DNA from: Microbacterium sp. LWH3-1.2
GTDB taxonomy: Bacteria; Actinomycetota; Actinomycetes; Actinomycetales; Microbacteriaceae
DNA: 64,000 nt
Direction: 5' to 3'
Assembly: GCF_040675855.1 (NCBI RefSeq)
Contig: NZ_JBEGIK010000001.1
Coordinates: 3,534,001-3,598,000, forward strand
In this document: piece by piece, positions 49,629 through 50,959 of the stretch
How the letters are laid out: every line of letters begins with the position of its first letter
How positions within the stretch are numbered: the first letter of the stretch is position 1
Translations under genes and position numbers: made by a program
The notes under the pieces: generated by a model
Databases searched by the model: none
Seen by the model: only the letters and a program-made list of their open reading frames with translations
What the model was told of the DNA's origin: nothing

Positions 49629-49955
49629 GCCCCTATAGCTCAGTTGGTTAGAGCAACGGACTTCAAGACAATTAAATGGAGCGCCGGCGCAGAAATGCGT
49701 CGGATGACCGCCGCTATATGCTGGGACGCCCTGAGAGCCCGAGGTACTCGCCGGAGACGGCAGTGACAATCCGAGGGATTGGGTAATCAGCAGGTAACCG
49801 CAAGGGAACCTCAGAGACTACACGCGGCGCACCTGACCGGTCCGGCCGAAGGTGAAGATATAGTCCAGACTGCAAGCCGGCGACGGTGGCTGGGGAAAGC
49901 CCAGTGCAGCAGGTTAATCCGTGGGTCCAGGGTTCGAGTCCCTGTGGGGGCACCA
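49629..49955 (+). tRNA. tRNA-Lys (anticodon UUU) interrupted by a group I intron
   Basis: Exon 1 is 49629-49663 and exon 2 is 49914-49955, with gene-encoded CCA at 49953-49955. Joined, they give a full cloverleaf: acceptor GCCCCTA/TGGGGGC, D arm GCTCAGTTGGTTAGAGC, anticodon stem ACGGA/TCCGT, loop CUUUUAA and T arm CAGGG-TTCGAGT-CCCTG. The loop gives UUU, lysine. The intron splits the gene after U34, the first anticodon base. Read without splicing, no tRNA can form. Confidence 0.93.
49664..49913 (+). ncRNA. group I self-splicing intron (IC3-like), 250 nt, no ORF
   Basis: Exon 1 ends in U49663 and the intron ends in G49913, as the chemistry requires. P1: exon CUU (49661-49663) pairs with guide GAG (49679-49681), with the U-G wobble at the cut. 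P2 hairpin CCGGCGCA-GAAA-TGCGTCGG (49684-49703). P7: GACTA (49816-49820) with TAGTC (49861-49865). P8: CACCT with AGGTG (49830-49854). P9: CTGCA with TGCAG (49870-49909). CAGAGACTACACG and GAAGATATAGTCC are the conserved R and S elements. No homing endonuclease is encoded. Confidence 0.93.
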
Positions 49956-50615: not shown

Positions 50616-50959
50616 GAGCCCGAGGGTAGTCCCACGTGTCGATGCGGTCGAGCCGCCGCATCCACAGCTCGTACAGCGCGGCGCGGTCGACGCCCCTCGT
50701 CCGGGCCTGGGAAGTCGAGGATCGACACCGCCACCATCCGCATCTCGTACGCGTCCGAGTCGAGCAGCCGGTCGACCTCGCTGAGCAGCATCCGTTCGTT
50801 TGCCTTCGCGATGTCGAATACGGTGCCCGTGCGCACGCCGATCACCTCGGTGCGCTGGTGGGTCATGCGGCGCCGGATCTTGACCGCTTCGTCGACGGAT
50901 GCTGCGCTCTCGAGTGTGCGGACGCCCTCGACGGTCGGTGCCCCGCGGGGCTCAGTCAC
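50616..50959 (-). pseudogene. truncated, frameshifted AlkD-like DNA glycosylase gene
   Basis: GTG 50959 opens a frame with VDEAVKIRRRMTHQRTEVIG, RTGTVFDIAKANERMLLSEV and YEMRMVAVSILDF, the N-terminal HEAT-like helices of AlkD-type alkylpurine glycosylases. After about 85 residues the frame is lost; a second frame continues with DRAALYELWMRRLDRIDTWD and then runs into the GNAT gene. About two thirds of the usual protein is absent. The start overlaps the pncA stop by 8 bases, so it was once part of that operon. Confidence 0.65.

Follow-up and report, generated by a model that had tools for sequence, protein, structure and literature searches.

A group I intron in the tRNA-Lys(UUU) gene of a Microbacterium, one of two intron lineages found at the same bond

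The window, a 64,000 nucleotide stretch of the Microbacterium sp. LWH3-1.2 genome, contains a tRNA-Lys gene that is broken within its anticodon, which raises the questions of what interrupts the gene, whether the cell depends on it and how the interruption was acquired. The original prediction was a group I intron in a tRNA-Lys(UUU) gene of an actinobacterium, and the source of the DNA, the genus Microbacterium, agrees with the last of these points. Relevant passages of earlier publications assign the group I introns of bacterial tRNAs to cyanobacteria and to alpha- and beta-proteobacteria (PMC4033280), mention group I introns in fMet and Ile2 tRNAs in the account of tRNAscan-SE 2.0 (PMC8450103) and, in a 2014 review, state that every phage intron known by then lay in a protein-coding gene, although phage tRNAs are numerous (PMC3984707). 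One article (PMC5733544) claims "group I introns" of 22-49 nt in tRNAs of cyanobacteria, a Lys(CTT) gene among them; these were set aside because, in our judgement, they are too short for group I. Among the matches listed in the open-licence literature, none described a plausibly sized group I intron in a tRNA-Lys of Actinomycetota or of other bacteria, an absence that is not proof.

The Rfam group I model, RF00028, matched positions 49654-49879 of the forward strand over model positions 1-253, which covers the whole group I core, with a score of 54.7 bits (E 1.6e-12; gathering score 50). When the two flanking exons were joined, ARAGORN recognized a tRNA-Lys(ttt) of 77 nt with a clean cloverleaf and the anticodon UUU. 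Thus, both the intron and the host tRNA of the original prediction were confirmed: the tRNA-Lys(UUU) gene at 49629-49955 (+) is interrupted by a group I intron between U34 and U35 (Table 1). The cut after U34, the exon-terminal U (49663), the CUU/GAG guide pairing and the terminal G (49913) were likewise as described. The 5' exons of the related introns designated type A below were closely similar to that of the window. The interrupted gene was absent from the ARAGORN output at default settings.

Table 1. Parts of the interrupted tRNA-Lys(UUU) gene, in positions of the window
Feature	Position	Strand	Evidence
5' exon of tRNA-Lys(UUU), positions 1-34, ending C32 U33 U34	49629..49663	+	ARAGORN, joined exons
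P1 5' strand (exon CUU and intron CA), paired with 49677-49681, U-G at the splice site	49661..49665	+	4 of 5 pairs in 23/23 rows, the fifth in 18
Group I intron, 250 nt, final base G (49913)	49664..49913	+	RF00028; alignment of 23 sequences and pair counts
Internal guide sequence UGGAG, the P1 3' strand	49677..49681	+	P1-P9 model
P2 hairpin	49684..49703	+	4 of 7 pairs changed on both sides
P3 5' strand, paired with 49824-49828	49710..49714	+	23/23 rows, invariant
P4-P5 arm with long P5 extension (P4 49720-49724/49787-49791; P5 49729-49731/49781-49783)	49720..49791	+	P4 and P5 invariant; two-sided changes in 4 extension pairs
P6	49792..49811	+	23/23 rows, invariant
P7 5' strand GACUA (guanosine-binding helix), pseudoknot with 49861-49865 UAGUC	49816..49820	+	23/23 rows, invariant
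P8	49830..49854	+	Invariant at the base; two-sided changes in two distal pairs
P7 3' strand UAGUC	49861..49865	+	RF00028 match and P1-P9 model
P9 region (P9, P9a, P9b), directly before the terminal G	49870..49912	+	Three P9b pairs changed on both sides
3' exon of tRNA-Lys(UUU), from U35, CCA encoded	49914..49955	+	ARAGORN, joined exons

The exact position of the break was examined in an alignment of type A introns, in which all 23 rows have a U-G pair at the 5' cut and a final G, and the column preceding the terminal G was nearly, but not fully, invariant. When introns were allowed, ARAGORN reported the same 250-nt insert with the junction one base off and named the product tRNA-Asn(gtt). An intron so placed, one base earlier, would still end in G in the window, but the U-G pair at the cut would be lost, the intron of one relative (L045) would end in A, and the genome, which already has a tRNA-Asn(GUU), would be left without any tRNA-Lys(UUU). 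The shifted junction, whose probability we put close to nil, was rejected given the missing U-G pair, the final G that is invariant in all 23 rows and the A-ending intron of L045; since it forfeits the pair and, in L045, the terminal G, the break is read between U34 and U35. It is hardly conceivable, either, that the insert is excised by a protein enzyme in the manner of archaeal- or eukaryal-type tRNA introns. Its position in the anticodon loop is the one feature that fits such removal, and against it stand the full group I fold, the Rfam match, the exon-terminal U, the intron-terminal G and an insertion after position 34 rather than 37.

A P1-P9 model that includes the P7 pseudoknot was paired in 99.2% of cells in 23 distinct type A introns. 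Thirteen pairs had changed on both sides, compared with 0-1 in controls in which the partners were slid by 1-3 columns. P3, P4, P5, P6 and P7 were invariant in these 23 introns, so that covariation was limited to the outer helices and does not test P3-P7. RNAalifold, which does not model pseudoknots, found two-sided changes in 13 of 69 pairs for type A and in 36 of 58 pairs for 34 B-like and viral introns; in both sets it paired the exon sequence GGACU with the 3' strand of P7, replacing P1 and P7. No ORF of at least 80 amino acids lies wholly inside 49664-49913, which could hold at most 83 codons, and no endonuclease family was detected by Pfam in seven neighbouring ORFs of the window. The intron therefore lacks the internal homing endonuclease gene by which homing group I introns are defined.

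Judging from this anatomy, splicing would follow the two-step group I pathway. The gene would be transcribed as a precursor whose intron folds so that the guide UGGAG pairs with the exon CUU and the intron CA; exogenous guanosine, bound in P7, would attack after U34, and the freed 3'-OH of U34 would then attack after the terminal G, joining U34 to U35 and producing the anticodon UUU.

RF00005 detected 45 uninterrupted tRNAs in the genome (3.94 Mb, 2 contigs, 99.99% complete), 43 elsewhere in the genome and two tRNA-Thr genes in the window. The sole lysine tRNA among them has the anticodon CUU (L013), and a search of these 45 for a further tRNA-Lys(UUU), proposed with the original prediction, found no intact copy. 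Because the only uninterrupted lysine tRNA is CUU, AAA decoding should rest on the interrupted gene, and hence should need its splicing. In six neighbouring ORFs, lysine was encoded by AAG 23 times and never by AAA; although the sample is small, it suggests a low demand for AAA. A broad pattern for any intact tRNA-Lys(UUU) found no second UUU gene in 39 of 40 carriers of the intron; the match in the remaining one, an Agromyces, was a different gene. In Nesterenkonia alkaliphila F10, two tRNA-Lys(UUU) genes (L104, L114) are interrupted by an intron. The only tRNA-Leu(UAA) listed for the Microbacterium sp. LWH3-1.2 genome (L030, C1:3246820-3246970) is 74 nt long, is without the usual long variable arm and by eye resembles short intron-bearing tRNA-Leu(UAA) genes of viruses.

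The distribution of the intron is patchy. RF00028 detected it in 16 of 99 sampled Microbacterium genomes, in 2 of 398 genomes of a family sample and in 3 of 396 of an order sample, all of them Microbacterium and including the genome under study. Both the genus and all genomes (84,980 species) were scanned with a DNA pattern that extends across P7 and the 3' exon. Within the genus, 29 of 198 genomes were carriers, 13 of type A (this genome included) and 16 of type B, and the survey of related Microbacteriaceae proposed with the original prediction found the type A intron in Agromyces too. The scan of all genomes gave 75 loci, 62 of which splice to tRNA-Lys(ttt) at the same bond; the other 13 gave no tRNA on splicing. 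The 62 loci are in Microbacterium, Agromyces and one other member of the Microbacteriaceae, in Nesterenkonia, Tsukamurella, Prauserella, Phytoactinopolyspora and Actinomyces oricola, in Frankiales and Actinomycetota MAGs, and in the planctomycete Tautonia sociabilis and a Gemmatimonadetes MAG. RF00028 missed 4 of 23 pattern-found carriers outside the genus; with these misses and that of ARAGORN at default settings, carrier genomes can appear to be without tRNA-Lys(UUU).

An uninterrupted tRNA-Lys(UUU), not of the A type, was found in 72 of the 99 genus genomes by one pattern, a 73rd match (G401) having been discarded as a 3-mismatch decoy. Eleven genomes initially had neither feature: four proved to have another intact tRNA-Lys(UUU), recognized by a different pattern, three are incomplete assemblies, and four of high completeness (G408, G409, G410 and G296) had neither an intact tRNA-Lys(UUU) nor the intron in the pattern and intron scans. 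The A gene without its intron was found in 0 of the 99 genomes within 3 mismatches. RF00028 also matched 60 of 396 genomes sampled across the phylum, the present one included; 22 of 30 loci examined gave no tRNA host, and others were apparent interruptions of tRNA-Asn(GUU) after position 35 (L066, L067, L069, L074, L076, L089), with several alternative host readings for L074, or of a CAU tRNA after position 36 (L077, L082).

The 62 loci fell into two main groups. Type A, to which the window belongs, comprises 19 loci (8 Microbacterium, 10 Agromyces, 1 other) with introns of 247-265 nt in tRNAs that start with GCCCC, and type B comprises 40, two of them (L108, L110) assigned by hand, with introns of 214-222 nt in tRNAs that start with GGGCC and hosts that include Nesterenkonia, Tsukamurella and Prauserella. 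The Tautonia, Actinomyces and Gemmatimonadetes MAG loci are neither. The mean identity of A to B was 55%, and B was closer to the viral tRNA-Leu introns (64%) than was A (51%). Lineage A was closest to the Tautonia intron (L105; 65-68%), the nearest relative found outside the Microbacteriaceae, which occupies the same bond but is 310 nt long, has other tRNA exons and belongs to another phylum. In a tree of 61 introns and 202 columns, A and Tautonia were set off by a long branch with supports of 99-100, and supports within the B and viral part were mostly low. The long P5 extension is present in A only. A and B are most probably two unrelated intron lineages at the same bond of actinobacterial tRNA-Lys(UUU).

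Both resemble known systems in part. The cyanobacterial and plastid tRNA-Leu(UAA) intron is also inserted after U34; its 5' exon likewise contains CUU, and a U-G pair is formed at the splice site. The host here is Lys(UUU) instead, and lineage A has the long P5 extension. The Azoarcus pre-tRNA-Ile(CAU) intron, of subgroup IC3, is like the present one in being small, in lying in the anticodon loop and in having no protein gene, and differs in its tRNA and in its position after 36. The core motifs of lineage B appear to resemble those of the Azoarcus intron, and B may belong to IC3; these motifs were not seen in lineage A. The original prediction had suggested that the intron might have moved between tRNAs that share GGACUU. 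Movement between tRNAs with a common CUU suits lineage B, whose viral counterparts are found in Leu, Lys, Arg, Glu and Ser tRNAs, but is not supported for the lineage in the window, given its identities of 51% to viral Leu introns and 55% to B, its long branch and its P5 extension. A derivation of lineage A from the cyanobacterial Leu intron in particular was unsupported, as judged on the viral Leu introns (51%), and a remote link between the two may exist.

Two further explanations bear on function and history. The interrupted gene might be a dead relic, AAA being read by another tRNA or by a misreading tRNA-Lys(CUU). AAA is indeed rare nearby (0 AAA and 23 AAG in six ORFs), and the four highly complete genomes with neither an intact gene nor the intron suggest that loss might be tolerated, unless their genes are too diverged for the patterns. 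We nevertheless give a relic very little chance of being correct: the exons and the intron core are nearly invariant across two genera, as selection for splicing predicts, the helices contain compensating changes, and by pattern 39 of 40 carriers show no other UUU gene. Quite improbable, if less extreme, is that A and B are one intron that diverged in place from a common ancestor at the site with no replacement. The two share the bond, the guide pairing and, in Microbacterium, the neighbourhood; their mean identity of 55%, the long branch with its support of 99-100, the confinement of the P5 extension to A and the affinity of A to a planctomycete intron and of B to phage introns all argue for separate lineages.

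The proteins encoded next to the gene in the window are fasciclin, thioredoxin/DsbD-like and pncA-like by Pfam. Among the Microbacterium loci examined (3-8 kb), such fasciclin, pncA-like or thioredoxin-like genes were present at all 8 of type A, at 16 of the 22 of type B and at 9 of the 12 that are intact; in Agromyces, the neighbours of the gene in the window were found at only 1 of 10 loci. As A, B and intact genes mostly share one neighbourhood, A and B look like alternatives at a single Microbacterium locus. A weak Guanidine-III riboswitch-like match on the reverse strand of the window, at 50675-50725 (21.3 bits, gathering 36, E 0.14), may be due to chance.

The A tRNA was 78-84% identical to seven intact tRNA-Lys(UUU) genes of the genus, 93% to a tRNA carried by an Arthrobacter plasmid and 87% to the tRNA-Lys of Gordonia phage BrutonGaster, an intact gene close to the integrase. 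A derivation from tRNA-Lys(CUU) was not supported, since the CUU gene of the same genome is only 80% identical. Matches as good as that of BrutonGaster were found on bacterial replicons, of Nocardia farcinica (88.3%) and Ruegeria (87.0%), and GCCCC acceptors also occur in an intact gene of one genus genome (G482), in BrutonGaster and in the Arthrobacter plasmid. Given the Nocardia and Ruegeria matches and the G482 gene, a phage source of the A exons is not required. With up to 3 mismatches allowed, 14 of 199 family genomes have an intact copy of the central part of this tRNA; the four of these that were checked have GGGCC acceptors. These comparisons point to an imported A gene.

The intron of an Agromyces locus (L115) is 90-93% identical to the Microbacterium A introns, and its neighbour proteins only 63-68%, a contrast that strong conservation could also explain. 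Among the Microbacterium A loci except L096, pairwise identities were 76-97% for proteins and 92-100% for introns; most carriers, again excepting L096, are alike in the neighbouring proteins, consistent with a single acquisition and vertical descent since then. Two core patterns detected no A-type intron in viral contigs, blastn of the intron detected none in named phages, and none was seen in plasmids, where only the Arthrobacter exon match was seen, and phage delivery of lineage A is for this reason unproven. Four viral contigs with an A-like 5' exon have an intact tRNA-Lys.

Introns like those of lineage B are found in phages. The first pattern matched 16 viral contigs, of which 11 (8 distinct introns of 183-204 nt) splice credibly to tRNA-Lys(ttt); four gave no tRNA on splicing, and L177, at 791 nt, was dropped as doubtful. 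A core motif matched at least 132 viral loci, at least 56 of them with an interrupted tRNA and one of these with two, numbers that are not dereplicated and are no census. The hosts among the matches listed were Leu(UAA) (38), Arg(UCU) (9), Lys(UUU) (4), CAU tRNAs (two) and one each of Glu(UUC), Ser(UGA), Lys(CUU) and Arg(CCU), each call being the first acceptable junction per candidate, taken without a shuffled control. Most readings place the B-like viral introns after U34, and some place them after U33; in one viral contig (L208), an apparent tRNA-Lys(CUU) is broken after position 35. Near an integrase gene, the isolated Gordonia phage Daredevil has an unannotated tRNA-Lys(ttt) with a 238-nt B-like intron (L363 1499-1736). 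Its host tRNA and bond are those of the window, but its mean identity is 79% to B and 53% to A.

PHROGs assigned endonuclease or resolvase labels to some proteins near viral tRNA introns, and Daredevil has an annotated HNH gene; a role of such proteins as endonuclease helpers was set aside, as a Pfam endonuclease family was found in 0 of 7 proteins tested, and the "HNH" protein of L171 looks like a metallopeptidase/VWA protein. The type B intron query matched 1270 plasmid records, 1258 of them over at least 80% of its length. The one examined, pCTX-M3 (NC_004464.2), has at L365 ~2465-2765 a group I intron that is missing from the annotation and scores 36.8 bits with RF00028, less than the gathering score of 50; its flanks read as halves of tRNA-Leu(UAA), and aac(3)-IId lies nearby.

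Taken jointly, it is highly probable that self-splicing restores the UUU anticodon, that the intron is one of two lineages and that it probably arrived with its exons by replacement of the locus. Splicing itself is inferred from the anatomy, and locus replacement, its route and mobility from these comparisons. Most likely, an intron-bearing tRNA gene was imported into the tRNA-Lys locus and then passively inherited in Microbacterium, the intron probably arriving together with the tRNA exons; having no protein gene, it would persist passively, helped by the rarity of AAA codons. A bolder account appears unlikely as a whole, though it deserves some weight: phages would maintain a pool of introns in tRNAs with U34 (Leu UAA, Lys UUU, Arg UCU, Glu UUC and Ser UGA) that move by means of CUU and the guide, temperate actinophages such as Daredevil would deliver whole interrupted tRNA-Lys genes, and a split anticodon may pay. 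What counts against it is that the Nocardia and Ruegeria replicons equal the phage in their match to the A tRNA. If it were true, a bacterial tRNA-Lys would have been replaced by a phage-borne interrupted gene, making essential decoding dependent on a ribozyme, and the unspliced precursor should escape defence nucleases that cut the tRNA-Lys anticodon loop, so that splitting may pay.

Import by locus replacement followed by passive inheritance remains the preferred history; the group I intron itself is real and well supported, and its host gene is unusual. Compared with the earlier summaries, the findings add several actinobacterial genera, a tRNA-Lys host and phage tRNA genes, including one of an isolated phage. 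The larger interest lies in two lineages that occupy one bond and in the tRNA introns of phages. As the genus has members with and without the intron, its cost, its spread and the replacement of a tRNA locus are directly testable in Microbacterium.
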